Source: Leeuwenhoekiella parthenopeia
Lineage (GTDB): Bacteria; Bacteroidota; Bacteroidia; Flavobacteriales; Flavobacteriaceae
Assembly: GCF_020782115.1 (NCBI RefSeq)
Contig: NZ_JAJGMW010000001.1
Span: 62,001-126,000, forward strand
DNA length: 64,000 nucleotides
Direction: 5' to 3'
A program made the translations under genes and the position numbers. Position 1 is the first letter of the stretch, and each line of letters starts with the position of its first letter. Shown here piece after piece: positions 1,508 to 58,280 of the stretch. Under the pieces are notes generated by a model. The model saw only the letters and a list, made by a program, of their open reading frames with translations. It was not told the DNA's origin and did no database searches.

Positions 1508-1526
1508 AAATGTAAAAGATACATTT
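1508..1526. promoter_or_regulatory. Candidate AraR operator, site 1 (araB)
   Basis: AAATGTAAAAGATACATTT, an inverted repeat with arms AAATGT/ACATTT (extending one pair inward to AAATGTA/TACATTT). It lies in the 85-base gap between the GH127 and araB genes, 45 bases before the araB start. The same AAnTGT-N7-ACATTT pattern recurs at 7515-7533, 7613-7631 and 58262-58280, always upstream of sugar-utilisation genes or the regulator gene. That the Nudix-type regulator at 7665 binds it is an inference. Confidence 0.5.
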
Positions 1527-1547
1527 AAAATAATTTTAACTATTTTC

Positions 1548-3905
1548 TTAAAAGTCTGCATTTAACAAACGCACACCATAAATTCCTGAGGTCCTGGAGT
1601 TGGGAGCCGCCTCAAAACGCACATTTAAAATTTCGCTTTTTGCAACAAGGTCGTCGGGTAAATCATAATCTACTTCGAAGAACGAATTGCCCTGCGTCCC
1701 ATCAAATTGAGGAGATGCGATCACCTGCCCGTTTACCAAAATATCGAACTTCCTTCCCGCATCTTTACCGTAATAGGTAATGCGCAAGGTTTTAGCCAAA
1801 GCATCTTTGTTTCTCAAATCATAACTGAACCAACCCGTCGCATCGCGCCAGTGGCGGTTTTGATGCACACCGCTGTTAGAATCTTTAGAATCAAAACCAT
1901 GATCAGACTCGGGTTGCTGCTCGCCCGGAGCCACATAATCAAGCGTGATTGATCTCAGATAGGCTTCGGCCTTTTGCTGCTCCTCGAGTTTGCGCTGCAT
2001 TTCGGCAAGACTTTCAGGAGTTTCGGTTTTAAAATAAATGGTGTAGCGCTTTTCGTGAATGTTGTAAAATGGCTGAAGCACCAAATCCTTATATGCATCA
2101 GGATACAACAATTGCGAAGCGGTAAATTGTAAAGTTTTACCGGCAATGGGCTTGATCTGGTCAAGCATTGATTCGCCGGCTTTTGAAACAAATGTGGGCG
2201 ATTCAGTCAAAGGCAAAAACGGGCCGTTAGCAATATGACCGCCACGACTATCGTCAGCAAACATTCCCTTCTGATCTTCATCTCCGGTCACAGCCGCCAA
2301 AACCAGCGGGCCATACTTTACCGAAACATAGCCTGATTCATCCGGGATTTGCTCGAGACTGAGATGCATAGGCATTTCCATCCTGATGCGATCGCCGTTT
2401 TTCCATTTGCGTTCTAAAGCAATATAGCTTCCGGGCTTGGCTTCAAGCTCCTGAAGCTTTCCGTTTACATAAACTTTTAAAGCCCCTGCTGCCACCCATT
2501 CCGGATAGCGCAACATCAGCGTTCCTTTGGTTTTCTTTCGGCTTTGCCAAATCAATTCTGTAAAATCAGCTTCCGGGAACCGGGTTTCCTGTTTTAAGGA
2601 AGCCTGTTTTTCTTCCCATTTCACTTCAGAAGGAATAAACAGGTTTACATAAAGCTTGTCTTCCGCTTTTGCGTAAATGAGTTCGTTGTACTTGGTATGA
2701 TTTTCCATCCCTGAGCCTACGCAGCACCAGAAACTGGTTTCAGGCTGCGAGTACACGCGGTAATGCCCGGGGCGCATGGGGGTAAAATACACAAAACCAC
2801 CCTCGGGATTCTGAGTGGATAAAATGTGATTGTATAGAGCTCGCTCGTAAAAATCGATATAATTTTCCTCTGCCGTGTCTTCAAATAAGAGCTTGCTGAG
2901 TTTAAGCATATTGTAGGTATTGCAACTCTCAGGCCCCTGCTCGCTGCTCATCACCGAAGAAAAATCATCAACAGGATTAAAATGTTCCCGAACGCTGTTT
3001 CCGCCGATGCTCAGACTGCGTTTTTCAGTCACGTTATCATAAAAATTGGACGCGGCATCGTGGTATTCTTTATCTGCTTCCAATTGATTGATGCGCTCAA
3101 AACCGATGAATTTCGGGATTTGAGTGTTGGCGTGCATTCCGGTTAGGATGTCTTCATCAGCTGCTAGTGGCTCCAACAATGCCAGTTGGGAAAAGTCTTT
3201 AGCGAGTTTCAAGTACTTTTTATCGCCGGTAATCGCATAGACTTCAGCAAAAACTTCGTTTAGGCCGCCGTGTTCGGAGCGCAGCATATTCTGAATTTGT
3301 TCCTGAGAAAGATTTTCAGTGATGCCCATAAACCAATCAGTCAAATCGATCAACATGTCTTTTGCAATTGGAATTTCGGCGTGCAGCCACGCGTCTTTGA
3401 GTCCGTTGAAGGTCTTGTGAATATTGTACAAAGGCACCCATTTGTTATTCAATCCAAAGCTTGATGCATTGATTTTTCCGGCTTTAATTTCATCCCATAG
3501 CTGCTTACTTCCGGGAATTCCGCCCACGTAACCATTACCGTTTGCCTGTTGTGCTTTTTGTAATTCGGTAAGCGCATAGTCTAGCAACTCTTTAGCTTCA
3601 AGATCGCCGGTAGACGCGTAATACATAGACAAGGCAGACAGGTAATGTCCTGCAGTATGCCCGTCAAGACCGGTATTTTCCCAGTTGGTATAAGATTCGG
3701 CTTTAGGCTCGAGACCGGCTTCGCGTAAAAAAGGTGCAAGCAGGCGATCTGCCTCTAAATCTTTGATGTATTCAAAATCGGTTAAAGCGGCTTCTTTAAA
3801 AACGCCTGAAGTAACCTCAACCTGATTGAGCGGGAATAAATCAACGCTTTGCTGCGCCGAAAGACCCCAACTCCATATTCCTAATACTGCAAGTATTTTT
3901 TTCAT
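1548..3905 (-). CDS. GH127 beta-L-arabinofuranosidase (secreted)
   Basis: Glycoside hydrolase of family 127 (formerly DUF1680), expected to release beta-L-arabinofuranose from arabinan- or extensin-type glycans. The 785-residue protein starts with a Sec signal peptide (about 1-17, ending GLSA). The cysteine-glutamate zinc site of the family is visible: E326 and C328 in GPESCNTYN, and C394-C395 in SFWCCVGSG, where the first of the pair corresponds to the nucleophilic cysteine of HypBA1. E307 in NSVREHF matches the general acid/base position. The C-terminal part (about 675-785) is an extra beta-sandwich-like module (GWFSYDLRN...ITYYGKDAG), often seen on Bacteroidota members. It is one base from the upstream GH43 gene, so it is in the same operon as the GH43, GH43 and GH51 genes. 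Substrate specificity within GH127 is inferred from neighbours. Confidence 0.92.
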   Translation of the reverse strand: MKKILAVLGIWSWGLSAQQSVDLFPLNQVEVTSGVFKEAALTDFEYIKDLEADRLLAPFLREAGLEPKAESYTNWENTGLDGHTAGHYLSALSMYYASTGDLEAKELLDYALTELQKAQQANGNGYVGGIPGSKQLWDEIKAGKINASSFGLNNKWVPLYNIHKTFNGLKDAWLHAEIPIAKDMLIDLTDWFMGITENLSQEQIQNMLRSEHGGLNEVFAEVYAITGDKKYLKLAKDFSQLALLEPLAADEDILTGMHANTQIPKFIGFERINQLEADKEYHDAASNFYDNVTEKRSLSIGGNSVREHFNPVDDFSSVMSSEQGPESCNTYNMLKLSKLLFEDTAEENYIDFYERALYNHILSTQNPEGGFVYFTPMRPGHYRVYSQPETSFWCCVGSGMENHTKYNELIYAKAEDKLYVNLFIPSEVKWEEKQASLKQETRFPEADFTELIWQSRKKTKGTLMLRYPEWVAAGALKVYVNGKLQELEAKPGSYIALERKWKNGDRIRMEMPMHLSLEQIPDESGYVSVKYGPLVLAAVTGDEDQKGMFADDSRGGHIANGPFLPLTESPTFVSKAGESMLDQIKPIAGKTLQFTASQLLYPDAYKDLVLQPFYNIHEKRYTIYFKTETPESLAEMQRKLEEQQKAEAYLRSITLDYVAPGEQQPESDHGFDSKDSNSGVHQNRHWRDATGWFSYDLRNKDALAKTLRITYYGKDAGRKFDILVNGQVIASPQFDGTQGNSFFEVDYDLPDDLVAKSEILNVRFEAAPNSRTSGIYGVRLLNADF

Positions 3906-3906
3906 A

Positions 3907-4887
3907 TTAATCTACTATTTTAATATTTAAACCCGGCCAGCCTGTATCGTCCCAAGAGAGCTGAGCGATTTGCAGTTTTGGCTTCGCATTATCCTGCGCA
4001 TCGTATGCGTGGAAAATGATATAATCTTTGTCATCAAAGGTATAGGCAGCGTTGTGCCCAGCTCCATACCAGTTCGCATTGCCTTCAAGGATAAGGGTTC
4101 CACCACCTGCGTTAAGGCTTTTGCCTTCCCGGTCAACATAGGGACCGGTTGCCTTTTTAGAACGGCCCACGACAACTTTATAGGTGCTGTTTTCTCCCCG
4201 GCAACACAAATCCCAGGATAGAAACAGGTAATACCAACCGTTCTTTTTAAAGATAAACGGAGCCTCAAGAGCCGCATCACCCGGGTTATCGTCTGCCAAC
4301 TCAAAAGAGCGTTCTCTTCGTGCAATCGTGTACCATTCCTGAGGTTTTGCGATTGATTTTAAGTCGTCAGCAAGTTTGACCATTTTGAGGCCTTCCCAAA
4401 AACTTCCAAAAGCCAGCCAGGGCGTTCCTTTTTCATCAATGATCAAATTGGGATCAATGGCATTCCACAAATCCCGGTTGGGAATCGACTGAATTACTAT
4501 TCCCTGATCTTCCCACTTATAGGCAGGATCGTTTGCATCTAATGTTGAATTTATTGTCAGGCCTATAGCTGATGTATTTTTCGCGAATGCGGAAACCGAA
4601 TAATACAAATAGTATTTCCCGTTATGAAAACTGATGTCTGGAGCCCAGATATGATTGTTAAAATCCTGAGCAACCTCATCTGCCCAAACCGGCTCTTCCT
4701 GAAAAACCTGAGGCTGGCGTTCCCAGTTCTTCAAATCTGATGAACTGAAAACCGATATTCCCCTACCGGTACTAAACAGGTAAAACGTATTTCCCTCTTT
4801 AATCATTACCGGATCATGCACCCGTATGTCCTGAGCAAAAAAGCTTCCGTTGATTAGGAATACTAAAAGTGCAAGGTGCTTTTTCAT
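3907..4887 (-). CDS. GH43 endo-arabinanase-like hydrolase (secreted)
   Basis: Five-bladed beta-propeller glycoside hydrolase, family 43, most like arabinan endo-1,5-alpha-L-arabinosidases. The signal peptide spans about 1-18 (ends SFFA). The three family carboxylates are visible: D25 in RVHDPV (general base), D145 in WNAIDPNL (pKa modulator) and E208 in ALEAPFIF (general acid). Motifs HIWAPDISFHNGKYYLYYS and SWDLCCRG are characteristic of the arabinanase subfamily, and the late GAGHNAAYTF holds the metal-coordinating histidine region. Length 326 is normal for a single-domain enzyme. It lies 5 bases from the second GH43 gene and 1 base from GH127 in one operon. Endo- rather than exo-activity is inferred from similarity of motifs. 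Confidence 0.88.
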   Translation of the reverse strand: MKKHLALLVFLINGSFFAQDIRVHDPVMIKEGNTFYLFSTGRGISVFSSSDLKNWERQPQVFQEEPVWADEVAQDFNNHIWAPDISFHNGKYYLYYSVSAFAKNTSAIGLTINSTLDANDPAYKWEDQGIVIQSIPNRDLWNAIDPNLIIDEKGTPWLAFGSFWEGLKMVKLADDLKSIAKPQEWYTIARRERSFELADDNPGDAALEAPFIFKKNGWYYLFLSWDLCCRGENSTYKVVVGRSKKATGPYVDREGKSLNAGGGTLILEGNANWYGAGHNAAYTFDDKDYIIFHAYDAQDNAKPKLQIAQLSWDDTGWPGLNIKIVD

Positions 4888-4892
4888 TTATA

Positions 4893-5891
4893 TTACGGTT
4901 GAATTCCCTCTGAGGTCATCACAATACGTTTGATGCTTCCGTCTTCATTGTAATACAGGCGATCTACACATACCGAACGATGATAACTACTTCCGTGAAT
5001 AGGAATGCTCCCGTTATGATAAATAAAATACCAGTTGCCTTCAAACTCAATAATAGACTGGTGATTGGTATTGCTATTGCCGGCCACTTCATTTAAAATC
5101 CCTTTAAACTCCCAGGGACCGGTAACGGATTTAGACATCGCATAAGCTATTTTCTCAGGAAAGTCATACGCGTAAGACAGGTAATACCAATCGCCGCGTT
5201 TGTGGATGTAAGGAGCTTCGGTAAACTTGGGAAGATCAACGGTATGGATAGGACCGTCCATTTCAATCATAGTGTCTTTCAGCTTAATATATTTACAAAC
5301 CCGATTACCCCAATATAGATACGGCGTGCCATCATCATCGATGAAAACGGTAGGATCGATATCGTCCCATCTTATATCAGTTTGCGTCGTCATATCATTT
5401 GTGATGAGCGCTTTACCAATGGCATCTTTCCAGGGTCCTTCCGGGCTGTCTGCCACGGCTACTCCTATAGCCTTTCCGGGTTTTGAATCATTATGCTCTG
5501 CGGTCACAAACCAGTAGAACTTACCATCCTTTTCAACAACCTCAGAAGCCCAGGCTGAATGAATAGCCCAATCAAAATCACTTGGTTTTAATGGAACGGG
5601 ATGCTCCTTCCAGTTGACCATGTCGTCTGAAGAATACAGCAGCCACTCATCCATAATATAGCGCTCTTCATTTTCCGGCGCCTGATCGTGCCCGACATAC
5701 AGATAGACCCGGCCGTTATGAACAAAAGCTGCGGGATCAGCCGTGTATTTATTGGTAATGATGGGATTGTTAAACGAACTTTCAAGTTCTTTAAAAAGTT
5801 CTTCCCCCCGCTCAGGATCCTGAGCTAAAGCGTTGTCAGACAACACAAAACACAGATATGAAAAAAATGCTATTCTAAGACTTTTGATCAT
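4893..5891 (-). CDS. GH43 alpha-L-arabinofuranosidase/beta-xylosidase-like hydrolase (secreted)
   Basis: A second family 43 beta-propeller enzyme of 332 residues with a Sec signal peptide (about 1-23, ending NALA). Catalytic triad positions: D52 in KYTADPAAF, D179 in WDDIDPTVFID and E225 in FTEAPYIHKRGDWYYLSY. The NPIIT.KYTADPA opening and the WLLYSSDDMVNW segment distinguish it from the arabinanase next door and resemble exo-acting arabinofuranosidase or xylosidase subfamilies. It sits between GH51 (29-base gap) and the arabinanase-like GH43 (5-base gap), all minus strand. A plausible role is debranching or trimming arabino-oligosaccharides after endo-cleavage. Which of arabinofuranosidase or xylosidase activity it has cannot be decided from the sequence alone. 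Confidence 0.85.
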   Translation of the reverse strand: MIKSLRIAFFSYLCFVLSDNALAQDPERGEELFKELESSFNNPIITNKYTADPAAFVHNGRVYLYVGHDQAPENEERYIMDEWLLYSSDDMVNWKEHPVPLKPSDFDWAIHSAWASEVVEKDGKFYWFVTAEHNDSKPGKAIGVAVADSPEGPWKDAIGKALITNDMTTQTDIRWDDIDPTVFIDDDGTPYLYWGNRVCKYIKLKDTMIEMDGPIHTVDLPKFTEAPYIHKRGDWYYLSYAYDFPEKIAYAMSKSVTGPWEFKGILNEVAGNSNTNHQSIIEFEGNWYFIYHNGSIPIHGSSYHRSVCVDRLYYNEDGSIKRIVMTSEGIQP

Positions 5892-5920
5892 AAGTCTCTA
5901 TTTGATTTGTTGCTACGCTT

Positions 5921-7465
5921 TTAGTTTGCTTCAAGAACCACTACCGAAAACGGTGGTAACTCTACTTCAAGAGTTCCGTTTTTAAGCTTGAATTTTTTGA
6001 ATTGTTCAGGCTGAATTTTTTCCGGCGACTCAAATGTGTTGTGATCTTCAAGTGTTTTTGAAGTTAGAATTGTTGCGCTGATATCTTTCAGTTTTAAAGC
6101 ACCTACGGCTACGCTAACAGTATTTGATTTTTTAGAATCGATATTCACCAAAGAGATGTGAACCTTTCCTGCTGCATCTTTTGAAGCCGAAGCATTTACT
6201 GCCGGAAGCTTTTCACCATTAAACTCAAAGTCTGGCGTATTCAATTCGATAGGAATAAGCTGCGCATCCTGATGCACGTTGTACATTTTCATCACATGAT
6301 AGGTAGGAGTCAGGATCATTTTCTCACCTTCGGTAAGAATAACCGCCTGAAGCACATTTACAACCTGAGCCAGATTGGCCATTTTCACACGTCTTGCATG
6401 ATTGTGAAAGATGTTTAAAGTCATACCTGCAATCATCGCATCACGCATCGTATTCTGCTGAAATAAGAAGCCGGGATTGGTATCTTCCATAACATCATAC
6501 CAGCCGCCCCACTCATCAACGATTAAGTCTACCTTGCCTTTAGGATCGTACTTATCCATGATTTCAACATGCTTGGTAATGAGTTCTTCCATTAACCAGG
6601 CCTGCTCCATAGTTTTAAAATACTGGTCTTCCGAAAAGCCTACAGAAGGTCCTTTTGCATTCCAGTCTATCACAGAATAATGGTGTAAAGCAACACCTTG
6701 CAGCAGGTTATGCGGAATGTCGCGCATCAAAACTTCCGTCCAGTGATAATCGTCGTTGCTGGCACCTGAAGCTATTTTATACAAACCGCCTTCTAGACCG
6801 GCATCAGACATAAAAGTGGCATATTTACGGTAGATATCAGCATAATATTCTACTCGCATATTTCCACCACAACCCCAGGCTTCGTTTCCTACACCCCAGT
6901 ATTTTACACCCCAGGGCTTTTCACGGCCGTTTTCCTTTCGCCAATCGGACATTGGGCTGATTCCGTCAAAATTCACGTACTGCACCCAGTCAGCCAGTTC
7001 CTGTACTTCACCACTCCCCACGTTTCCGGCCAGGTAAGGTTCTGCTCCAAGCTCTTCGCAGAGATTTAAAAAGTTATGCGTACCAAAGCTGTTATCTTCG
7101 GTCACATTACCCCACCAGGTATTTACGATTGTAGGCCGCTCGCTTTGTGGCCCTACCCCGTCCTTCCAGTGATAGGTATCTGCAAAACAACCGCCCGGCC
7201 ATCTCAGGTTGGGAATCTTCAAATCTTTTAAAGCATTGATAATGTCATTACGAACACCCTCTGTATTGGGAATATTACTTTTTTCGCCCACATAGAGACC
7301 GTCGTAAATACACCGTCCCAGATGCTCTGCAAAATGACCGTAAATATTTTTGTCAATTACGGGAGCTTCGTCTGATGGATTGAGTGATACTGTAGCCTGA
7401 GCCAAAGTGATCAGCGGAGTCAAAAAAAGAAGAAAAACCGGAAGAATACGGGTAGTACGTAACAT
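5921..7465 (-). CDS. GH51 alpha-L-arabinofuranosidase (secreted)
   Basis: Retaining exo-alpha-L-arabinofuranosidase, family 51, clan GH-A. The 514-residue protein has a signal peptide (about 1-22, ending ITLA) followed by the typical opening VIDKNIYGHFAEHLGRCIYDG. The acid/base is E195 in GVGNEAWGCGG and the nucleophile is E318 in LIVDEWGGWYD. NLRWPGGCFADTYHW and the GTHNFLNLCEELG segment are family signatures; a C-terminal beta-sandwich closes the protein. It is the first gene of the arabinan operon (GH51-GH43-GH43-GH127) and is divergent from the araR-type regulator across a 199-base region that carries two copies of the candidate operator. The signal peptide implies periplasmic or surface action on imported or extracellular arabino-oligosaccharides. 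Confidence 0.94.
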   Translation of the reverse strand: MLRTTRILPVFLLFLTPLITLAQATVSLNPSDEAPVIDKNIYGHFAEHLGRCIYDGLYVGEKSNIPNTEGVRNDIINALKDLKIPNLRWPGGCFADTYHWKDGVGPQSERPTIVNTWWGNVTEDNSFGTHNFLNLCEELGAEPYLAGNVGSGEVQELADWVQYVNFDGISPMSDWRKENGREKPWGVKYWGVGNEAWGCGGNMRVEYYADIYRKYATFMSDAGLEGGLYKIASGASNDDYHWTEVLMRDIPHNLLQGVALHHYSVIDWNAKGPSVGFSEDQYFKTMEQAWLMEELITKHVEIMDKYDPKGKVDLIVDEWGGWYDVMEDTNPGFLFQQNTMRDAMIAGMTLNIFHNHARRVKMANLAQVVNVLQAVILTEGEKMILTPTYHVMKMYNVHQDAQLIPIELNTPDFEFNGEKLPAVNASASKDAAGKVHISLVNIDSKKSNTVSVAVGALKLKDISATILTSKTLEDHNTFESPEKIQPEQFKKFKLKNGTLEVELPPFSVVVLEAN

Positions 7466-7514
7466 AGAGTTTATTTTTTTAAATAAAACGTTTGCGCTAT
7501 TGAAGCTTTGTTTT

Positions 7515-7533
7515 AAGTGTTAATTTCACATTT
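7515..7533. promoter_or_regulatory. Candidate AraR operator, site 2 (GH51 operon)
   Basis: AAGTGTTAATTTCACATTT matches AAnTGT-N7-ACATTT with one mismatch in the inverted-repeat arm. It starts 49 bases before the GH51 start codon, almost the same offset as site 1 has to araB (45 bases). It overlaps a further palindrome, TTAATTT-N10-AAATTAA, at 7520-7543. A role as the regulator site for the GH51-GH43-GH43-GH127 operon is inferred. Confidence 0.45.
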
Positions 7534-7612
7534 AACAAATTAAGGTAAAATTTTCTTAAAATCAAACCTACTTTTGAATATTTATGAAAACACAAAAGCC
7601 AGTAAGGGCCTA

Positions 7613-7631
7613 AACTGTGTAATCCACATTT
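7613..7631. promoter_or_regulatory. Candidate AraR operator, site 3 (araR autoregulation)
   Basis: AACTGTGTAATCCACATTT matches AAnTGT-N7-ACATTT with one arm mismatch, 33 bases before the regulator ATG. It ends 12 bases ahead of a TATATTTG -7 element (7644-7651), so it would cover the -33 position of the regulator promoter. This spacing to the -7 element is close to that of site 1 (15 bases). Autoregulation is an inference. Confidence 0.45.
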
Positions 7632-7643
7632 GTTAATTAATTT

Positions 7644-7651
7644 TATATTTG
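7644..7651 (+). promoter_or_regulatory. Candidate -7 promoter element of araR
   Basis: TATATTTG is an exact match to TAnnTTTG, 13 bases before the ATG at 7665, which implies a very short 5' leader. No TTG lies at 17-23 bases upstream; site 3 is there instead. Consensus match only. Confidence 0.4.
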
Positions 7652-7664
7652 TTAAAAAATTAAA

Positions 7665-8354
7665 ATGTTAAGCAGCTATTCAACCGCAGATAAAGTGCTT
7701 CTGGCTCTGGACTGCATCATCTTTGGATTTGACCAGCATCAACTTAAAATCCTGCTTATTCAAAGAGACTTTGAACCTGAAAAAGGAAAATGGTCACTTA
7801 TAGGAGGCTTTCTAAAACGCACCGAAACTCTGGATGATGCTGCAAAACGCATTCTCAATCACCTCTCCGGTCTTGATGACATCTATTTGGAACAGCTGTA
7901 TACCTTTAGCGAAGTAGATCGCGATCCCGGCGAGCGCACACTTTCTACCGCATATTATGCCCTGATTAATAGTGAGGATCACAAACTTCTGGAAGACGGC
8001 GACTATACTGCAAAATGGTTTGACATTAAAGAGGCTCCCAACCTGATTTTTGACCACAATGAGATGGTACAAAAAGCAATCCTGAGATTACGCCGCAGGG
8101 CGGTGAGTAAACCTATTGGTTTTGAATTACTGCCTGAGAAATTCACGATGCTGCAATTGCAGAAACTTTATGAAGCCATTCTGGACGTCGAATTGGACAA
8201 ACGCAACTTTATCAATAAAGTAAATGCGCTTGATATTCTGGTTAAACTCGATGAGAAGGATATGACTTCCTCCAGAAAAGGCTCTTACCTCTATCAGTTT
8301 GATAAAGAGAAGTACGACCAAAAGATCGAGGAAGGTTTTACCTTTAAAATCTAG
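7665..8354 (+). CDS. araR: Nudix-fold transcriptional regulator, AraR type
   Basis: Member of the NrtR/AraR group: an N-terminal Nudix domain (about 10-150) that acts as an effector sensor, joined to a C-terminal winged helix (about 150-229, MLQLQKLYEAILDVELDKRNF). BtAraR of Bacteroides thetaiotaomicron, the known example, senses L-arabinose and controls arabinose genes. Here the Nudix box keeps G48 and E54 (GFLKRTE) and R62, but the three glutamates of REUxEExGU are replaced by I63, H66 and L67. Hydrolase activity is therefore unlikely, as expected for a sensor. It is divergent from the GH51 operon across a 199-base region with two candidate operators. Length 229 is typical. The family call is strong; the ligand is inferred from neighbours. 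Confidence 0.87.
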   Translation: MLSSYSTADKVLLALDCIIFGFDQHQLKILLIQRDFEPEKGKWSLIGGFLKRTETLDDAAKRILNHLSGLDDIYLEQLYTFSEVDRDPGERTLSTAYYALINSEDHKLLEDGDYTAKWFDIKEAPNLIFDHNEMVQKAILRLRRRAVSKPIGFELLPEKFTMLQLQKLYEAILDVELDKRNFINKVNALDILVKLDEKDMTSSRKGSYLYQFDKEKYDQKIEEGFTFKI

Positions 8355-8490
8355 TGTAATTGAGGCGTTAAGACTCCTCTTCCATTAGGTATTCATTAAC
8401 AATCTGTGCGTTATAGCCCCGGTTATCTTAATTAAATCCCAATTTTAATCCTTTTGTATAAGAATTTCCTCATTCTTTTAAACAAAGAAT

Positions 8491-8498
8491 TAAATTTG
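8491..8498 (+). promoter_or_regulatory. Candidate -7 element upstream of the carotenoid locus
   Basis: TAAATTTG matches TAnnTTTG exactly, 25 bases before the ATG of the MerR-type regulator at 8524. A TTG at the usual 17-23 base spacing is absent; the nearest TTTG (8453-8456) is too far away. It may be a regulated promoter, perhaps recognised by an alternative sigma factor or controlled by the regulator itself. Consensus match only. Confidence 0.35.
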
Positions 8499-8523
8499 AG
8501 AGTTGATCGGCTTATAACCACAT

Positions 8524-9429
8524 ATGGATGCAGTAAAATCTACTTTCAGTATAAAAGATCTGGAATGCTTTGGAGGTGTGAAAGCGCACACCATACGTAT
8601 GTGGGAGCGCAGGTATAATCTTTTGGAACCCAAGCGTACCGACACCAATATTCGATATTACGATCTGGCCGATCTGCAAAAACTACTCAATGTCACGTTT
8701 CTGCTTCAGCACGACTATAAAATTTCTAAAGTAGCAGAACATTCAACCGAAGAGATTGCTCATCTGGTTCAGGAATTCCTTAAGAAAAACCGGCTTGGCT
8801 CTAATTATCACGCTATTAGTTCGTTTAAAATAGCGATGATGAATTTTGATCACCATTTGTTTACCAAAACGTTTAATACGCTTTCGGAGAAAATGGAGTT
8901 TAGAAAGATATTTTTTCAGGTATTCATCCCGCTTCTTGAGGAGATTGGCCTGCTTTGGCAATCCAACGCCATAAACCCGGCACACGAGCATTTTATTTCC
9001 AATCTTATACGTCAAAAAATGCAGGTAAAGATTGAAAGTTATAGTGCCAACAACAAGAGTACGAGTTCTAAAACCTTTGTTTTATTTCTTCCTGAAAATG
9101 AAATCCACGATCTGGGACTTATATTCCTCAATTACGAAGTAGCCGCAAAAGGCTTCAAATACATTTATCTAGGTCAAAGTATTCAGACCGAAAGTTTAAA
9201 ATATCTGGTAAGCGCACTGCCCGATGCTCATTTTGTGAGTTATATGACCATAAATAGCAACGGGATTAGTATTGCTGAATTTGCCCGGCAATTCAACCGG
9301 GATGTAGAAAGCGATAAAGTACCTCTATATTTGTTAGGTCGCCTCATTCACGAAGAAAATCAGGCAGATATGCCTTCAAATGTAAAACTCATTAAAACCA
9401 TTGAAGCGTTTCAGACGCTTTTAAATTAA
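8524..9429 (+). CDS. MerR-family regulator with cobalamin-binding domain (CarH/LitR-like photoreceptor)
   Basis: Transcription factor with an N-terminal MerR helix-turn-helix (about 6-75; HTIRMWERRYNLLEPKRT), a four-helix B12-binding cap and a C-terminal Rossmann-type B12 domain. The CarH photoreceptor signature is present: W145-x9-E155-H156 in the cap (LWQSNAINPAHEHF) and E193-x-H195-x2-G198 (EIHDLG), whose histidine would be the lower axial cobalt ligand. In CarH these residues bind adenosylcobalamin, and light releases repression of carotenoid genes. The crtI start lies 8 bases after this stop and crtB and crtZ follow, so the target is probably its own operon. Regulation by light is inferred from the motifs. 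An alternative is a B12-binding or B12-independent regulator that has kept the fold. Confidence 0.86.
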   Translation: MDAVKSTFSIKDLECFGGVKAHTIRMWERRYNLLEPKRTDTNIRYYDLADLQKLLNVTFLLQHDYKISKVAEHSTEEIAHLVQEFLKKNRLGSNYHAISSFKIAMMNFDHHLFTKTFNTLSEKMEFRKIFFQVFIPLLEEIGLLWQSNAINPAHEHFISNLIRQKMQVKIESYSANNKSTSSKTFVLFLPENEIHDLGLIFLNYEVAAKGFKYIYLGQSIQTESLKYLVSALPDAHFVSYMTINSNGISIAEFARQFNRDVESDKVPLYLLGRLIHEENQADMPSNVKLIKTIEAFQTLLN

Positions 9430-9437
9430 TACAAATC

Positions 9438-10901
9438 ATGCCAAAAAAGATTGCTGTTTTAGGATCAGGATTTTCAGCTCTGGCTGCCTCTGCTTATCTG
9501 GCTAAAGCCGGTCACGATGTTCATATTTACGAGAAAAACAGTTCTGCCGGAGGGCGCGCGAGACAATTAAAAAGGGAAGGCTTTACTTTTGACATGGGCC
9601 CTTCCTGGTACTGGATGCCTGATGTCTTTGAACGCTTTTTTCAGGATTTTGGCAAGTCGGCCTCAGATTATTACAGTCTGGAGAAACTGGGCCCTGCCTA
9701 TAGGGTATATTTTGGCCCCGGTGACTACATCAGTATTCCCGACACCCTGGAGAAAATAAAATTGATTTTCGAACAGGAAGAACCCGGAAGCGGTGCAAAA
9801 CTGCAGCGCTTTATAGACGAAGCCGGCAAAAACTACGATGTGGCCATAAAAGATTTGGTATACAGACCGGGAGTTTCCCCTCTTGAGCTGGTTACACCGG
9901 CAACCATAAAAAAAATAGGAAGCTTTTTTAGCACCATAAGTAAAGACGTACGCAAATCATTTAAAAACCCAAAGCTTGTACAAATTTTGGAGTTTCCGGT
10001 ATTGTTTCTGGGTGCTAAACCACAGGATACCCCGTCTTTTTACAGCTTTATGAATTACGCTGATTTTGGGATCGGAACCTTTCATCCTAAAACCGGTATG
10101 CACGCCGTTGTAGACGCTATGACCAGTCTGGCGACAGAACTGGGAGTTACCTTCCATTTTAATAGTGAAGTGAGTCGCATTCGTACCCAGGGCAATAAGG
10201 CTATAGGTATTGAAGTCAACAATAAATCAGTTGAAGCAGATGTTGTTTTAAGCGGGGCAGACTACCATCATACGGAGACCCTTCTGCCTCAAAAACTGAG
10301 ACAGTATTCTGAAAAATACTGGGAAAGCCGGGTATTTGCCCCTTCTTCTCTCCTGTTTTATGTAGGTTTTGATAAGAAAGTTGAAAACGTTGATCACCAT
10401 ACCTTATTTTTTGATGTGGACTTTGAGCAACACGCACGGGATATTTACGATAATCCCGAGTGGCCAGACGAACCCTTATTTTACGCAAACTTCCCTTCAA
10501 AAACAGACGCTACTATGGCTCCGGAAGGAAAAGAAGCCGGCTTTTTTCTGATTCCGCTTGCTCCGGGTCTGTATGATTCACAGGAATTACGTGATACCTA
10601 TTTTGATATCATCCTAACCAGACTTGAGAAGATCACCAATCAAAAGCTCAAAAAAAATATTATATTTAAAGAGTCTTTTTGTGTAAATGACTTTGTAGAA
10701 GTATATCATTCCTATAAAGGTAACGCCTACGGGATGGCCAATACGCTGCTTCAAACTGCATTCTTAAGACCTAAGTTAAAGAGTAAAAAAGTTGCTAATT
10801 TATATTTCACCGGTCAATTAACAGTTCCGGGACCCGGAGTACCTCCTGCTTTGATTTCGGGAAAACTTACAGCAGGTTTAATTACCAAAAAGAACAATTG
10901 A
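9438..10901 (+). CDS. crtI: Phytoene desaturase CrtI
   Basis: FAD-dependent desaturase that converts phytoene to lycopene in carotenoid synthesis. The N-terminal dinucleotide fold has the G9-S-G11-F-S-A motif followed by the EKN...GGRAR segment; DMGPSWYWMPDVFERFF is typical of bacterial CrtI. The C-terminal FAD motif YFTGQLTVPGPGVPPALISG is complete. Length 487 is normal. It starts 8 bases after the CarH-like regulator and is followed after 6 bases by crtB, so regulator and enzymes probably share a transcript. A related 3,4-desaturase or ketolase function is possible in principle, but adjacency to crtB favours phytoene desaturase. Confidence 0.95.
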   Translation: MPKKIAVLGSGFSALAASAYLAKAGHDVHIYEKNSSAGGRARQLKREGFTFDMGPSWYWMPDVFERFFQDFGKSASDYYSLEKLGPAYRVYFGPGDYISIPDTLEKIKLIFEQEEPGSGAKLQRFIDEAGKNYDVAIKDLVYRPGVSPLELVTPATIKKIGSFFSTISKDVRKSFKNPKLVQILEFPVLFLGAKPQDTPSFYSFMNYADFGIGTFHPKTGMHAVVDAMTSLATELGVTFHFNSEVSRIRTQGNKAIGIEVNNKSVEADVVLSGADYHHTETLLPQKLRQYSEKYWESRVFAPSSLLFYVGFDKKVENVDHHTLFFDVDFEQHARDIYDNPEWPDEPLFYANFPSKTDATMAPEGKEAGFFLIPLAPGLYDSQELRDTYFDIILTRLEKITNQKLKKNIIFKESFCVNDFVEVYHSYKGNAYGMANTLLQTAFLRPKLKSKKVANLYFTGQLTVPGPGVPPALISGKLTAGLITKKNN

Positions 10902-10907
10902 AAAAGA

Positions 10908-11747: not shown

Positions 11748-11748
11748 A

Positions 11749-14506: not shown

Positions 14507-14555
14507 GTACTGTTTTTTACAGGGTAAAATAATACGAATAGGGTGTTAACAGCCC

Positions 14556-17110: not shown

Positions 17111-17116
17111 TTTGCC

Positions 17117-46874: not shown

Positions 46875-46889
46875 AAAATGTTTAAAAAT

Positions 46890-50600: not shown

Positions 50601-50659
50601 GAAAATTCTATTCGAAATTCTTTTTTGTACTTTTCGTAACTTGTTAAATCAATATTCAC

Positions 50660-51865: not shown

Positions 51866-51872
51866 GATCCCT

Positions 51873-54254
51873 TTAAGAGTCTAAAACTTCCATCAGATCA
51901 TCATACGTGATGGTCTGATTTTCTTTAGACCGGGGTAGTTTTGAAGTATACAGTACATTTACCCGAATGGCTTTTAACCCCACAACACCCTGTACATCTT
52001 CAAGCTCTACGTATTCCACTTCCTGACCCAGGTATTTTTTGCGCTGTAAATAGTGAATATAACGGGTGTACTCTTCAGCATCAGTATCCTGCGAATAAAT
52101 TATAGCGATCTTCCCTTTTTGAGTCACACGCTCGTCACTACCCTTAATACAGGCTTTATCAATGCGCTTTTTGATAATCTCATACCGCGCGTTGTACGTT
52201 CCGTCTACATCAAATTTTTTCTCATCCATTCGGTAACGGATAGATAAGGTGGTGCTAAAAACCAAAATAAGCGACGCGGCATCAAGCTGCAATTGCGCTC
52301 CCTCCTGTTTGTGATAAAAATGATTTTCCATCTCACACATCGTAGAAAGCTGCCACAATCTTAAATTGTACAGGTAAACCTCGTTAAAAGCACTGGTGGG
52401 CGTCATCGATGCGCCTATGTAAATGTTGTGATCAACACCGTCGGTCTTGTAACGCTCAAAATAGTGCGGAAAAATTTCCTGTGCCTCCTGTTGCTTACGG
52501 TCTATGAAGGTTGCCAGATTTTGATTGATAAGCTGAACGGTCTCATCATAATGCTTGCGGTTCTCATAAATGAGCCCTGTATCTTTATTAATGGCCGTTT
52601 TGTAGTTATCGATAGCTTTTTTCAGCTCAGGAATTTTAGTGTTCAGGTGGTTGAGTAAGGGGTTTACTTCTTCTTTAAGCAAGGCGAAAACCTCACTCTC
52701 GCTACTGGCATTAAGCTGATCATTGATTTGATTTGTAAATTCTTCAATACGGAATTTTACCTGCTCATAAATAGGCATTGGTTGGGCCTTAAGAGCTAAC
52801 TCGAGAATGGTATCTACCATTTTAAGCTGAATGAGAATATCCTTTTGAATGGCGCTATTACGCTCATCTGAAGAACCTACGATGTCAATTTGACCGTAAA
52901 GCGGGTACACATCTTCAAAGGCGATATCCTTAAAGGCAGCAAACTTGCCGGCATCCTGATTTTTAATAAAGCGTTTGGCTTCCTCCTCAAAAATCCACAA
53001 AACGCTGGGATGTATGCTGGTACATTCGCTTTGGATGACCGCTTTTATTCGGTTTTCAAGATCATTGCGTTTGCGCTCTACCGTAGAAACGATAAAAGGC
53101 ATCACATCATCAAGCTTGGTAGCGTTAAGACTGTGCAGTTTATTACGCGTTTCAGAAACCAGTTCGAGTACTGCAAGGAGCTCATTTCCTTTTGCAATGG
53201 GCGCCAGAATACAGCTTTTTACTCTCTGAGTAAGTAAATTTTCAGCCAGAATATTGTGTCCGCTTTTACGCGCATACTCCTCAACATCTGGTATTATAAA
53301 ATAGTTTTTATCTTTTACCAGTGAGTTATAGGCATTGTCGCACATGCTCTTACGACAATCGTTTCGCGCATCTTTATTTAAGATAAAACTGGTAAGCATT
53401 TTCTCGTCAGACATCTGGGCGAAATGATCATTTCCCCCATCAAACTCGGTAAAACCTACCCGTAAATCGGGAATGTTGAAAATAGCGCTAAAAATTTCCT
53501 TAAACTGCTGCGAGGTATTTTCGTTCAGGGTTTTCTTGGAAAGTAAAGTGCTTTTTAAATCTGAAATCGAATCGTCAACCGTGACATCGGTAAGATTTAA
53601 AATGGTAATTCCTTTTAAAATCCAGCTCTGAGGAGGAAAATACTCTTTCCAAAGTTTATAATCGTAACCGTTTGCAATGAGTTTATCTGCGATATCAGAC
53701 GTGATTTCAATCGCCTCATCGGTAGGCTCGCAATAGGTAAAATCTGCATTGATCGTGGCCCGGTAACTGCGAATGATTCCGTTTTTATCTGGAATCTCGT
53801 AATACAGCGGTCGGCTGATGTCAACCTCATACCCGTAATACGTGTTTAAGATAATCACACAACCTAAAATATAATAGAACTCGGTATCCAGGTCCCGTAT
53901 TTTTAGTTTAAAGTCGGGCCCTGCTTCTTCGAGTATCGTAGCAAATCTGCGTGTAGGGTTAAATATTCGGTTTTGAAAGGGAATTGTAGCCGCTTTAATC
54001 TCATTTTTAGTGAGCGCTGCAGGGAAAAGATTATCGAGTAAAGTGCTTAACGGCTCTTCGTATTTGTGGATGTTTTCAAAATCCTTGATACCTTCAGCCA
54101 GCTCAGGATATCCTTCCGCATAGTCTAGAATAGACTTCATATACTCGCGCGTAATCGGGTTTTGAGATTGCTTCATACGTTTCCTTAGCATCTCAAAAAC
54201 CTTGGTGAGACTAAGCTCAACCTGTAAGGGAAAATCCTTTAACTCTTCCATCAA
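51873..54254 (-). CDS. Large GAF-domain protein
   Basis: 793-residue protein without signal peptide or membrane helix, so cytoplasmic. A GAF-like sensor domain lies about 255-400 (FIIPDVEEYARKSGHNILAE, CILAPIAKGNELLAVLELVSE), flanked by long helical regions with coiled-coil character. The C-terminal part (about 600-793) has a conserved unknown domain (DGVDHNIYIGASMTPTSAF and KIAIIYSQDTDAEEY). It has no recognised kinase, cyclase or HTH output. The partner or ligand is unknown. It is convergent with the HD-PycTM gene at 7 bases, and divergent from the TlpA-like gene. It may be a sensor that works with one of its neighbours, but nothing in the sequence proves that. Confidence 0.75.
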   Translation of the reverse strand: MMEELKDFPLQVELSLTKVFEMLRKRMKQSQNPITREYMKSILDYAEGYPELAEGIKDFENIHKYEEPLSTLLDNLFPAALTKNEIKAATIPFQNRIFNPTRRFATILEEAGPDFKLKIRDLDTEFYYILGCVIILNTYYGYEVDISRPLYYEIPDKNGIIRSYRATINADFTYCEPTDEAIEITSDIADKLIANGYDYKLWKEYFPPQSWILKGITILNLTDVTVDDSISDLKSTLLSKKTLNENTSQQFKEIFSAIFNIPDLRVGFTEFDGGNDHFAQMSDEKMLTSFILNKDARNDCRKSMCDNAYNSLVKDKNYFIIPDVEEYARKSGHNILAENLLTQRVKSCILAPIAKGNELLAVLELVSETRNKLHSLNATKLDDVMPFIVSTVERKRNDLENRIKAVIQSECTSIHPSVLWIFEEEAKRFIKNQDAGKFAAFKDIAFEDVYPLYGQIDIVGSSDERNSAIQKDILIQLKMVDTILELALKAQPMPIYEQVKFRIEEFTNQINDQLNASSESEVFALLKEEVNPLLNHLNTKIPELKKAIDNYKTAINKDTGLIYENRKHYDETVQLINQNLATFIDRKQQEAQEIFPHYFERYKTDGVDHNIYIGASMTPTSAFNEVYLYNLRLWQLSTMCEMENHFYHKQEGAQLQLDAASLILVFSTTLSIRYRMDEKKFDVDGTYNARYEIIKKRIDKACIKGSDERVTQKGKIAIIYSQDTDAEEYTRYIHYLQRKKYLGQEVEYVELEDVQGVVGLKAIRVNVLYTSKLPRSKENQTITYDDLMEVLDS

Positions 54255-54471
54255 ACTAAATTTAAATAGAATTTAGTCAAAATTGACTACAAATAATAAC
54301 AGAGGCTTAGTCTTTAACATAGGTTTAAACTTACGTTTACCCGAAATATATTAAACAAAGATGCGGTATGTCACATGCGTTAATCAGCCTGCAAGAGGTC
54401 TTTGAATAATACCTTTGTCTGTTCCTAAAAGCTATAAATCCCGTATATTGCAGCATTATATCTTAAATTTT

Positions 54472-55614
54472 ATGAAACGAATACTTTTAGCAGGTCTTAC
54501 TCTGGCGCTCGCGATCTCCTGTGCCGAAGAAGCAGACTTTAGAATTTCGGGAACTACACCCGATATTGATAATGATACCAAGGTTTACCTTCAAAAAATA
54601 GACGAAAATAACCGTCTCGTAGGCGTAGATACTACGGTTATTAAAGAAGGAGAATTTAGTTTTGATCCTACTGAAGTTAAAAATCCGGAAATGATGGTTT
54701 TGGGCTTTGAAGCTGCCCAGGGAACCGTGATTCTTATTGCTGAAAATCAAAACATAAGCGTACGTGCCTATAAAGACAGTCTCTACACTTCAAAAGTGAA
54801 CGGTGGCAAGGAGAATGACTTTTTTAAGTTGTATTACAATGATGTTGTTGAATCGAACAAGAAGAAAAATAAACTTCAGGAACAGGCGATGAACTTTCAG
54901 CGTAACGGTGATACCGCCGGGATAACCGCACTGCGAGCTGAGTTTGAACAAATAAACACAGATGATACCGAGCGACGCATTGAGTTAATTGAAGAAAACA
55001 CCGATAAGTATGTTAGCATCATCGTATTATCTGATCTGGTAGGTACGCGAGCTATTGATGCCAATCGCGCTGAGGCTTTATTTGATAAGCTTGACCAAAA
55101 CCTTCAGGAAATGGAGAAAGGTGTTAAACTAAAAGAAATGATCGCTCAGGCCAAAGAACGTGAAGCTGCTGCCTCGCTTGCCGAAGTGGGCAATAAAGCC
55201 CCAGAGTTTACTGCTCCTACCCCAAATGGCGAACAGTTATCACTGCAAGAAGCCATGGGATCAAAATACACCATCATAGACTTCTGGGCCAGCTGGTGCA
55301 AGCCCTGCCGGGAAGAAAATCCCAATGTGGTTAATGTTTACAATCAATACCACGATAAGGGACTAAACATCATCAGCGTTTCTCTGGATCGCGAGTCTGC
55401 ACGTGATAAATGGCTGGCCGCTATTGAAAACGACAAGATGACCTGGTATCACGTATCAAACCTAATGGAATGGCAGGATCCCATCGCTCGTAAATATGGT
55501 ATTACCGCAATACCGGCAACGTACCTTTTAGATTCGGAAGGTGTTATTATCGAAAAAAATCTGCGTGGAGAAGCTTTAGTTTCTAAAATGCAGGAACTTT
55601 TAGGAGAAGGTTAA
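54472..55614 (+). CDS. TlpA-like thioredoxin-family lipoprotein with DUF4369 domain
   Basis: 380-residue periplasmic lipoprotein. The start at 54472 gives an SPII signal (MKRILLAGLTLALAISC, lipobox cysteine 17); an open frame extends upstream to a TTG at 54415 but lacks signal character, so the shorter start is chosen. The N-terminal DUF4369 domain (about 20-120) precedes a helical region and a C-terminal thioredoxin fold with the redox motif WCKPC in DFWASWCKPCREENP. It is likely to reduce or isomerise disulfides or handle cytochrome c maturation/oxidative stress in the periplasm. It is followed by a bidirectional terminator at 55635-55673. Confidence 0.9.
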   Translation: MKRILLAGLTLALAISCAEEADFRISGTTPDIDNDTKVYLQKIDENNRLVGVDTTVIKEGEFSFDPTEVKNPEMMVLGFEAAQGTVILIAENQNISVRAYKDSLYTSKVNGGKENDFFKLYYNDVVESNKKKNKLQEQAMNFQRNGDTAGITALRAEFEQINTDDTERRIELIEENTDKYVSIIVLSDLVGTRAIDANRAEALFDKLDQNLQEMEKGVKLKEMIAQAKEREAAASLAEVGNKAPEFTAPTPNGEQLSLQEAMGSKYTIIDFWASWCKPCREENPNVVNVYNQYHDKGLNIISVSLDRESARDKWLAAIENDKMTWYHVSNLMEWQDPIARKYGITAIPATYLLDSEGVIIEKNLRGEALVSKMQELLGEG

Positions 55615-55634
55615 ATTTCCTTCTTAAACCCATT

Positions 55635-55673
55635 AAAAAAGCCCTTTGAAATTTACTTTCAAAGGGCTCTTTT
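55635..55673. terminator. Bidirectional intrinsic terminator
   Basis: Perfect 11-base-pair stem GCCCTTTGAAA / TTTCAAAGGGC with a 5-base loop (55641-55667), with an A run on the left and a T run on the right, so it can end transcription from both the TlpA-like gene (plus) and the GH31 gene (minus). Confidence 0.85.
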
Positions 55674-55693
55674 AATTTTCGGATAGACTGTTT

Positions 55694-58147
55694 CTAAAAC
55701 GTTACTTCAATTGCAGCTCCTGAATAAGCTACAGTCTGTGCATCTGAAACCGCGCCATCCTTTCCGATTTTCACAACAGTGAATTTACGATCCTGAAGCA
55801 TTCCGTCAAACTCCCCTTTTCGGTCTGCGATCTTAAGAGTTTTTACTGCGTCATCCCACGTAAAGCTTATAGTAGAATATGCTCCATTTTCATAATTGTA
55901 ATTGTCAAATTCGTCCTCATAAAGGCTAAAGCTACCGTTTGCTCCCTCATAAACCCGTATCTCCAGATTATCCCACGACTTTTCTTCAGCATATTGAACG
56001 TCAGGCCCCTTAGACAAAATGCTTCCGGCTTTTACGTATAAGGGTATCGTATTAATTGTAGTTTCTTTGGTAATTTCCTGCCCGCCTTCAAAGCTTTCAT
56101 TTGTCCAGAAATCATACCAGCTGCTTCCTTCCGGAAGGTAAACAGGTGTCGATTTAGTTTCCGTAAAATCTACTACAGGCCATCCTTCTTCACCACGTTC
56201 TTTTCCTTTATTCCAACCGGTTTCTTCATCTACTTTCATCACTTTTTCAGGCGTGTATTGGGCTTCAAGTACCGGCGCAACCAGAATTGCATCGCCAAAC
56301 ATATACTCGTCATTCAGATCCCAGGTTTTTTTATCCTGGGGGAAATCCATCACCAGTGCGCGCATAAAACTGCCCTGATTGTGAGTAACTTCTGAAGAAA
56401 TGCTATAGATATACGGCAATAAGCTGTATCGTAATTCGATAGCATTTTGAATCGCATCGTAAATAGCTTCGCCCTTTTCACCAAAATAATAGATCTCACG
56501 CTTCAAATCAGTACCGTGTGACCGCATCATTGGGGTAAAGGCCCCATATTGCAACCAGCGTACATACAACTCCTGAAACAAAGGATTTTTAGAAGCCGTC
56601 CCGTCACTCCAGGATTTATTATAGGCTCCTGCGAAAAAGCCTCCGATATCAGTATTAAAATTGGGGTTTCCGGTAAGTGTAAAATTAAGACCGGCAGGAA
56701 TCTGGTTGCGTAAAGATTCCCAGGAAGAACCTAAATCGCCTGACCACACATTAGCGCCATAACGCTGCTGCCCGGCAAAGCCCGAACGCGTAAGAATAAA
56801 CACGCGTTTATCTGAAGATTCCTCGCGCTGGTGCTTATAAACACCACCTACAGTCTCCAGTGGATATGCATTACGCACTTTTCTAAAAGAACCTAAATAG
56901 GTCTCATTGTTGTAATCTTTATCCTGAATTTCTAAATGATCGGGCTCTGTAGAATCCATCCACCAGCCGTCAATCCCTAATGAAAACAGGTTTTTACTCA
57001 GGTAATTCCAATAGATATCACGTGCTTCCGGATCATAAGCATCGTAAACCTGTACTCCCGAAGGAAAATTCATATCCGGTGGCCAGGTTTCCTTTCCTGA
57101 CTGGGGCCAGGTCTGAAAGTCCATCAACATATTTTTTTCTTTCAGCTCTTTAAACTGAGGCGTTTCGGGTCCAAAAGAAGACCAAATAGAAATAATCAAA
57201 TGCGCGTTGAGATCGTGAACGTCATTTACGAATTTCTGAGGCTCGGGAAATGCCGGATTTCCAAAATCCATTGCATTCCAGTGGTAATTATCTCCCCAAT
57301 ATTGCCAGTCCTGAATAATTCCGTCAAGTGGAACGCCCAGTTCGCGGTGCTTTTGAACTACACCTACGGTTTCTTCCTGACTCTTATAACGCTCGCGGCT
57401 TTGCCAAAACCCATACGTCCATAGCGGAAACATAGGCACCTGCCCGGTAAGATCACGCATTTCAGCAATGACTTCATCTGCATTTTCGCCCGCCATCACA
57501 TAATAATCAATCCCATCGCCTACCTGAGAGGTGAACGAGGTTTCATTGTTAGCATCATTAAAGGTTGTAGGCGAGTAATTGTCCCAGAAAACACCATAAC
57601 CTTTAGGAGATTGAAAAAAGGTCGAAAAATCCCAGGTGTTATTCTGTACCATTTCAACCCTCTGATTGCGTTGCGACATTTTACCATTCTGTAAAATTCC
57701 CAGACCGTAAATGGGTTCATCTGCCTCTAAATTCCAGCTTTGACCTACAGTAAAAGTGTCTTCTCCATTATCAACAAAAGGCTTAAATGAAGCGGTACTC
57801 TCGCGTAATAAAAGACTGCCGTCCGGTTTAAAAAAGCTGATCGCTTTTGCGATGGTATCAAACTCCAATCGTAACCCGGCCGTTTTCAAAGCAACTCCAT
57901 TTTCGAGATCTTCAACTTCTACTGATACCTTTTCGGCTTCTTTTATTACCGAAAGACTATTCTTTTCAAAGGAACGATCCTTTGGATACTTTTTGATGCG
58001 TACAATGGAAGGCGAGATAAATTCGATCTGTATAGCTAATGAATCGGTTTGCGTTTTGATGCCGGAATCATAAACTTCATAAGATTTACTGGCACAACCC
58101 CCACAAATTAGTAAAGAGCAGATTGCCCAAAGGAAAATGGATTTCAT
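55694..58147 (-). CDS. GH31 alpha-xylosidase/alpha-glucosidase, lipoprotein
   Basis: 817-residue family 31 glycoside hydrolase. The SPII signal ends LLICGGC (Cys18), so it is a membrane-anchored exoenzyme. The nucleophile is D398 in IDGWWMDSTEPD and the acid/base is D471 in WSGDLGSSW. The VPLDGIIQDWQYWGDNYHW segment favours alpha-xylosidase-type members over maltases. C-terminal beta-sandwich domains complete it. It is the last gene of the minus-strand run and has its own 185-base upstream region with a candidate operator (58262-58280) shared with the arabinan locus. Acting with the GH3 upstream it could trim xyloglucan or related oligosaccharides; the exact activity is inferred. Confidence 0.9.
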   Translation of the reverse strand: MKSIFLWAICSLLICGGCASKSYEVYDSGIKTQTDSLAIQIEFISPSIVRIKKYPKDRSFEKNSLSVIKEAEKVSVEVEDLENGVALKTAGLRLEFDTIAKAISFFKPDGSLLLRESTASFKPFVDNGEDTFTVGQSWNLEADEPIYGLGILQNGKMSQRNQRVEMVQNNTWDFSTFFQSPKGYGVFWDNYSPTTFNDANNETSFTSQVGDGIDYYVMAGENADEVIAEMRDLTGQVPMFPLWTYGFWQSRERYKSQEETVGVVQKHRELGVPLDGIIQDWQYWGDNYHWNAMDFGNPAFPEPQKFVNDVHDLNAHLIISIWSSFGPETPQFKELKEKNMLMDFQTWPQSGKETWPPDMNFPSGVQVYDAYDPEARDIYWNYLSKNLFSLGIDGWWMDSTEPDHLEIQDKDYNNETYLGSFRKVRNAYPLETVGGVYKHQREESSDKRVFILTRSGFAGQQRYGANVWSGDLGSSWESLRNQIPAGLNFTLTGNPNFNTDIGGFFAGAYNKSWSDGTASKNPLFQELYVRWLQYGAFTPMMRSHGTDLKREIYYFGEKGEAIYDAIQNAIELRYSLLPYIYSISSEVTHNQGSFMRALVMDFPQDKKTWDLNDEYMFGDAILVAPVLEAQYTPEKVMKVDEETGWNKGKERGEEGWPVVDFTETKSTPVYLPEGSSWYDFWTNESFEGGQEITKETTINTIPLYVKAGSILSKGPDVQYAEEKSWDNLEIRVYEGANGSFSLYEDEFDNYNYENGAYSTISFTWDDAVKTLKIADRKGEFDGMLQDRKFTVVKIGKDGAVSDAQTVAYSGAAIEVTF

Positions 58148-58261
58148 GGTTTAAGTAGTTAAATTGGTTTTAAGTGAAAACTAAATGCAGGAAACGCACT
58201 CCTTAGAAATCACAATTTGACTATACAAAAGATTCCGAGTAACGAAATCGATTTATTTCAT

Positions 58262-58280
58262 AAATGTAAATTACACATTT
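58262..58280. promoter_or_regulatory. Candidate AraR operator, site 4 (GH31)
   Basis: AAATGTAAATTACACATTT, an inverted repeat with arms AAATGT/ACATTT and a 7-base spacer, 16 of 19 positions identical to the araB site at 1508-1526. It lies 114 bases before the GH31 start in the 185-base gap between the GH31 and CRTAC1 genes. The flanking T and A extend the arms to TAAATGT/ACATTTA. No convincing -7 element was seen between it and the gene. Confidence 0.5.

Follow-up and report, generated by a model that had tools for sequence, protein, structure and literature searches.

A conserved palindrome upstream of arabinan and arabinose genes in Leeuwenhoekiella is the probable operator of an AraR-type NrtR-family regulator

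Introduction

BtAraR (BT0354) is the NrtR-family L-arabinose repressor of Bacteroides thetaiotaomicron, and it has been characterized structurally (PDB 5bs6, 5dd4, 5ddg, 5deq). According to PMC4666351, gel shifts and crystal structures indicate that the apo-dimer represses and that L-arabinose releases it from DNA. The same study defines the residues that contact L-arabinose and those that line a hydrophobic pocket, and reports six base-contacting residues as conserved among the orthologs studied. The operator oligonucleotides published there contain GTGT-N7-ACAC, in sites that we located by eye. Among the open-licence papers listed by our searches, none has a title or abstract opening that describes an AraR or a galactose regulator of the NrtR type from Flavobacteriaceae. 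Here we analyse a 64,000-nucleotide stretch of Leeuwenhoekiella parthenopeia DNA (the window), in which a gene for an AraR-type protein lies next to arabinan genes and a palindromic motif recurs upstream of sugar-utilization genes.

Results

In the left part of the window, arabinan and arabinose genes form a minus-strand cluster of a GH51-type gene, two GH43 genes, a GH127 gene and araB (Table 1). GH51 is the family name that we take to apply to the arabinofuranosidase with the C-terminal Alpha-L-AF_C domain. The araR gene is divergent from this GH51 gene, and beyond the window araB is followed by araD, an SSF transporter gene, araA and an aldose epimerase gene (SSF and Aldose_epim domain matches). 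Directly after araR (window 8524-10901) we observed a gene for a MerR-type regulator with a B12-binding-type domain, then an ORF with an Amino_oxidase-family match that by eye resembles phytoene desaturase; the MerR-type gene perhaps encodes a light-responsive carotenoid regulator.

Table 1. Location of the candidate operators, promoter-like elements and genes discussed in the text
Feature	Location	Strand	Basis or remark
araB (FGGY kinase), truncated at the window start	2..1462	-	FGGY_N/C
TAGATTTG, fits TAnnTTTG, before araB	1485..1492	-	pattern match
Candidate AraR operator before araB, AAATGTAAAAGATACATTT	1508..1526	.	site also before araB in 5/5 congeners
GH127	1548..3905	-	domain match
GH43	3907..4887	-	domain match
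GH43	4893..5891	-	domain match
Alpha-L-arabinofuranosidase	5921..7465	-	Alpha-L-AF_C domain
Candidate AraR operator, divergent GH51/araR gap, AAGTGTTAATTTCACATTT	7515..7533	.	both arms kept in 8 aligned relatives
Weak copy close to araR, possibly a second operator, AACTGTGTAATCCACATTT	7613..7631	.	not conserved in 8 relatives
TATATTTG, -7-like element before araR	7644..7651	+	starts 31 bases from first base of 7613 site
araR, Nudix-like domain and NrtR/AraR winged HTH, 229 aa	7665..8354	+	NUDIX, NrtR_WHD, AraR_C over cut-off
GH31	55694..58147	-	domain match
Candidate AraR operator before GH31, AAATGTAAATTACACATTT	58262..58280	.	site at 5/5 near orthologs, spacers varying
C2 paralog	L062:9391-10116 (G000:C2:31393-32067); L283; L286		NrtR-family
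XylR-type paralog C9	L063:9554-10273 (G000:C9)		by FGGY kinase and xylose-isomerase-like gene

The first-pass annotation had placed the inverted repeat AAnTGT-N7-ACATTT at four positions of the window, and its description proved accurate: the coordinates are exact, the two copies with perfect arms share 16 of their 19 positions, and each of the others carries one mismatch in the left arm. All four copies lie between ORFs of at least 90 aa, upstream of araB, the GH51 gene, the araR-type gene and the GH31 gene, at distances of 34-132 bp from the start codons. The 1508 site is found 46 bp from araB and also 22 bp beyond the 3' end of the GH127 gene; the 7515 site lies 50 bp from the GH51 gene and 132 bp from araR, the 7613 site 34 bp from araR, and the 58262 site 115 bp from the GH31 gene, about 50 kb from the arabinose cluster. 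The best NCBIfam model for this GH31 gene is alpha-xylosidase, with a score below the cut-off (232.9 versus 606). The four places amount to six strand matches, where 0.09 are expected from shuffles of the window, and none of 100 shuffles gave six or more. There is no excess in the window when up to two mismatches from AAATGT-N7-ACATTT are allowed (10 versus 7.88 expected), and the motif is thus meaningful here at near-perfect copies only.

A genome-wide scan had been proposed as a check, and it indicates that the motif is not randomly spread. Searching with a degenerate pattern in place of a weight matrix, we found AARTGT-N7-ACAYTT at 11 places in the genome, compared with 2 for a reversed-pattern control. 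With 7613 added, all 12 places are intergenic on a coding map of ORFs of at least 90 aa, a map that overstates coding (5.3% of the window is non-coding by that measure). We followed near-exact sites only, since the pattern with up to one mismatch gave no excess over the genome (74 versus 94 for the reversed control). Eleven of the 12 places precede genes, mostly for arabinose, pectin or glycan use, that are also preceded by a site in one or more of five congeners; for 7613 this recurrence rests on a 7515-type site before the same genes. The twelfth, C57:61607, lies between genes for a mechanosensitive channel and a starch/glycogen synthase and has no recurrent target. The predicted target set would extend past the window and past arabinose: outside the window, sites precede a GH97 gene whose divergent neighbour encodes a hybrid two-component regulator, a GH43 gene, the gene for a BNR_4 protein, a GH39 gene, a transaldolase/F6P-aldolase-family gene and the gene for a large protein with a glycosyl-hydrolase core, the recurrence of the last two coming from G004, a near relative, alone. 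A further target is kduI, which heads an operon with an SDR gene, uxaC and a gene for a PfkB-type sugar kinase. This kinase scores below the cut-off of the KDG-kinase NCBIfam model, and we withhold the names kduD and kdgK because the operon shows an SDR and a PfkB-type kinase only. The AraR-type palindrome of the uronate operon headed by kduI (L072:6393-7226) is perfect, which suggests a coupling between the use of arabinan side chains and that of the pectin backbone.

We compared the sites with those of related genomes and found that 1508, 7515 and 58262 are conserved and that 7613 is not. A site precedes araB in all five congeners examined (G003, G004, G005, G010 and G011). When nine sequences of the GH51/araR gap are aligned, both arms of 7515 prove to be kept and 7613 to be lost; the latter, the weakest copy, is absent from eight relatives that keep 7515, and its role as an operator is doubtful. 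Near orthologs of the GH31 gene occur in 5 of 13 genus genomes, our own included, and all five carry the site. In the GH51/araR gap and at the GH31 and araR loci, the arms are kept while the spacers vary. The kduI gene is present in 12 of 13 genus genomes, nine of which, again counting our own, have a site matching at least 11 of 12 positions; the site is missing in G006, which lacks araR, and in G007 and G012, which have araR. We examined 74 sites from seven genus genomes (G008 included; 13 of 14 sites in the case of G004), 7 of which fall inside ORFs. Among the 67 intergenic sites, 56 precede a gene that has a site no more than 350 bp upstream in at least one other of six araR-bearing genomes (our own, G003, G004, G005, G010 and G011), and 11 have no recurrent target.

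The regions upstream of araR genes in other species carry the motif as well. Among the best 80 of 332 relatives, 45 loci have an exact copy of the motif in the 400 bp before araR (resampling mean 0.08) and 74 have one that matches at 11 or more of 12 positions (resampling mean 1.9), the control being 40 Markov resamplings of base transitions and not exact shuffling. By title these 80 loci are nearly all from flavobacteria, one being a Bacteroidetes bin, and they do not represent independent cases because many of the species are close kin. In six of the loci (L089, L117, L118, L133, L135 and L141) we observed paired AraR-type sites upstream of araR whose starts are separated by 63-66 bp, or some six turns of the helix; in the window, the separation of 7515 and 7613 is 98 bp. 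Such pairs could reflect cooperative binding or one operator for each divergent promoter.

Within the genus, the motif follows the presence of araR. An araR gene at least 75% identical to that of the window is present in 11 of 13 genus genomes, including our own, and absent from G006 and G008. The 11 genomes together hold 113 motif sites, compared with 37 for the control, and the two genomes without araR show no excess (5 versus 8 for the control), the only site of G008 lying inside an ORF. Two araR-bearing genomes do not fit well, G007 with 5 versus 4 and G009 with 12 versus 8 control sites. Beyond the genus the link is loose. Two genomes are in line with it, namely G038 (with a 53% relative; 18 versus 5) and G053 (60%; 8 versus 2), and two are not, G023 having 0 versus 1 with a 53% relative and G017 having 8 versus 3 with no protein match. 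G037 and G052, with relatives of about 40% only, have 12 versus 2 and 15 versus 7 motif sites. The sequence AAATGTACACCGTACATTT, on either strand, has two copies in G020 and one in G036, and G036 also has two copies of AAATGTCCAGTGGACATTT; that the spacers are identical suggests that other regulators, or repeats, share these arms.

The protein encoded at 7665 aligns to BtAraR (PDB 5bs6) without gaps over 215 residues (E 3.3e-65, 223.3 bits), and its closest matches from named sources, among those listed, are from a Leeuwenhoekiella isolate bin (90%) and L. nanhaiensis (89%). Measured against the contacts defined in the excerpts of PMC4666351, the sugar-bonding residues R34, R86 and H131 are all kept, as are six of seven hydrophobic pocket residues (Y5, F36, G47, G48, F49 and F129), Val-92 being replaced by threonine. 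The Nudix box is impaired, three of its glutamates being replaced by I63, H66 and L67. Three of the six base-contacting residues are kept (K179, R180 and N181) and three are changed (K184N, K204R and R205K; positions again from the excerpted source), with R183I as a further change. BtAraR scores higher against the C2 paralog (256.9 bits) than against the 7665 protein, and in our tree BtAraR, the flavobacterial AraR clade and a galactose-linked clade meet in one unresolved fork, which together argue against simple orthology of the 7665 protein with BtAraR. We favour the view that it is the functional AraR, as its predicted operator, its pocket and its gene neighbourhood suggest.

The consensus of the Bacteroidetes -7 element is TAnnTTTG. 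In all six genomes examined, the distance between the start of the araB site and that of this element is 34-36 bases; before kduI, in four genomes, it is 33-36 bases. Only araB (6 pairs) and kduI (4 pairs) contribute to a pile-up at 33-36 bases, since a fifth kduI pair, from G011, fell beyond the distance limit; these cases are orthologs and hence not independent. Near 60 site-gene pairs, TAnnTTTG occurs 16 times between offsets 0 and 60 on the gene side, with 13 occurrences on the far side and two further out, such that it is not specific to the gene side; in reverse orientation it is found 8 times over the whole stretch.

The genome encodes three NrtR proteins, namely the 7665 protein, C2 and C9. 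C2 is 52% identical to the 7665 protein, and just before its own gene we found an exact AARCGT-N7-ACGYTT in our genome and in 7 of 10 relatives; genus-wide this pattern gives 42 matches versus 17 for the control. In G006 the C2-related NrtR gene itself lies within a gal cluster. The C2 clade is well defined (support 100/97), and galK and/or galT are present in the fetched flank of five of its eight distinct members. The pocket positions of the clade read V36 and S48 in 7 of 8 members, and C92 and L129 in 6 of 8. These gal neighbours, the operator loci and the pocket residues suggest a galactose regulator, and C2 is possibly a galactose-responsive member of the NrtR family; an AraR-clade locus from Flavobacterium (L104) also has galK and galT matches within 20 kb. 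C9 is XylR-type by its neighbours, although its xylose-isomerase-like neighbour has a Pfam match below the cut-off. A block CTTATRGT-N7-ACTACAAG precedes the XylR gene in our genome, where it reads CTTATAGT-N7-ACTACAAG, and in 8 of 10 relatives; in G012 an AraR-type site is found upstream of the XylR gene in place of this block.

Discussion

Our analysis makes it very probable that AARTGT-N7-ACAYTT serves as operator for the 7665 protein, an AraR-type repressor of the NrtR family, whose sugar-free dimer would keep the arabinan/arabinose genes off until L-arabinose releases it from the DNA. By analogy with BtAraR, the dimer would bind one half-site with each winged-helix domain, over or beside the promoter, and hold these genes off; L-arabinose would then fill the Nudix-like pocket and rotate the DNA-binding domains, and the DNA would be released. 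Before araB and kduI, the spacing of the promoter-like elements would put the operator over the expected -33 region, which fits a repressor. The first-pass annotation had named the motif as the candidate target of the Nudix-fold regulator at 7665. This proposal stands for the set of sites, on account of the AraR-type protein, the operator geometry in the published excerpts, the near-exact sites at 74 of the best 80 of 332 araR loci and the lack of excess in genus genomes without araR; for 7613, which is not conserved, it is doubtful.

It is unlikely that the sites are read, wholly or in part, by another NrtR paralog, the galactose-linked C2 or XylR, instead of or besides AraR. The C2 operator differs from the AraR motif by one base per half-site, and the galactose-type genes of G014 and G187 (L032 and L314; two protein matches, none over 49%, in the former and one match in the latter) have AAATGT-N7-ACATTT upstream, as the XylR gene of G012 has an AraR-type site. 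G008 and G006, however, possess a galactose-type gene and no window-type araR, and they hold 1 and 4 sites versus 6 and 2 for the controls, while XylR has its own conserved upstream block. The genus counts and this block disfavour XylR or C2 as the sole reader. A Crp-like catabolite site is a much weaker candidate still and seems very improbable. A Crp-like palindrome, TATGTTnTAnAACATA, is associated with the araM and xylR operons in Bacteroides in the excerpts of PMC3878776, but as given there its TGT and ACA are six bases apart and flanked by TA, where our motif has AA. When exact arms were combined with spacings of 0-19 in the araR regions of the best 80 of 332 relatives, spacing 7 occurred in 45 regions, spacing 6 in 2 and no other spacing in any, and we reject the Crp-like site on these grounds.

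That the motif copies are chance palindromes in AT-rich gaps is scarcely credible for the set as a whole, given the excess in the window and in the genome and the araR loci: 0.09 strand matches would be expected in the window, and the arms are kept while the spacers change. The two genomic matches of the reversed pattern, the missing recurrent target of C57:61607 and the loss of 7613 in relatives do speak for chance, which is possible for C57:61607 and 7613. AraR as the reader of the remaining sites is in our view the better account.

The motif finding is real, well supported and mostly expected from known biology. New are the extension to flavobacteria, the less strict half-site, the operators of the paralogs, and kduI and a transaldolase-family gene as targets; the galactose-linked paralog with its one-base-different half-site is the more interesting side result. 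A wider reading would have three NrtR-family sugar switches in one genome with a common N7 geometry and the half-sites AARTGT (arabinose), AARCGT (galactose-linked) and CTTATAGT (xylose), such that one base pair in each half-site would separate the AraR type from the galactose type, and the reach of AraR would extend to pectin-derived uronate catabolism (the kduI-headed operon with uxaC) and to a transaldolase-family gene. Galactose specificity in this family does not feature in any of the papers that our searches listed. We regard this reading as tentative, not quite reaching an even chance, because only 5 of 10 fetched AARCGT loci lie in a cluster with galactokinase and/or galactose-1-phosphate uridylyltransferase genes and the other five do not. 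The motif finding extends an arabinose switch solved structurally in gut Bacteroides, together with a predicted target set, to flavobacterial degraders of plant and algal glycans. Since three paralogs with distinct, closely related operators coexist, the genus lends itself to studying how cross-talk between paralogous repressors is avoided.

Compared with BtAraR as described in the excerpted source, the 7665 protein has the same domain make-up, aligns without gaps, and shares the arabinose-contact residues and the TGT-N7-ACA geometry; the two systems also have araB, GH51 and GH43 targets in common, with aldose epimerase and transporter genes nearby. The araR gene here is divergent from a GH51-GH43-GH43-GH127 run, whereas the BtAraR gene lies inside araMPRDAB. 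Half-site position 3 is G in 5 of the 24 half-sites that make up the 12 genome sites here, the search patterns themselves limiting this position on at least one arm, and in all 6 half-sites of three BtAraR oligonucleotide sites located by eye. The two proteins differ by K184N, K204R, R205K and R183I, and transaldolase-family and kduI genes are among the targets here, unlike in BtAraR. C9 belongs to the same family as the xylose regulator XylR of the BT0791 type and lies beside FGGY kinase and xylose-isomerase-like genes; it is a gene separate from araR, with CTTATAGT-N7-ACTACAAG and not AARTGT upstream. The ADP-ribose-responsive NAD regulator NrtR shares the Nudix-like domain and the NrtR winged HTH with the 7665 protein, which differs from it by its sugar-gene neighbours and does not match the corresponding NCBIfam equivalog model (128.7 versus a cut-off of 400).
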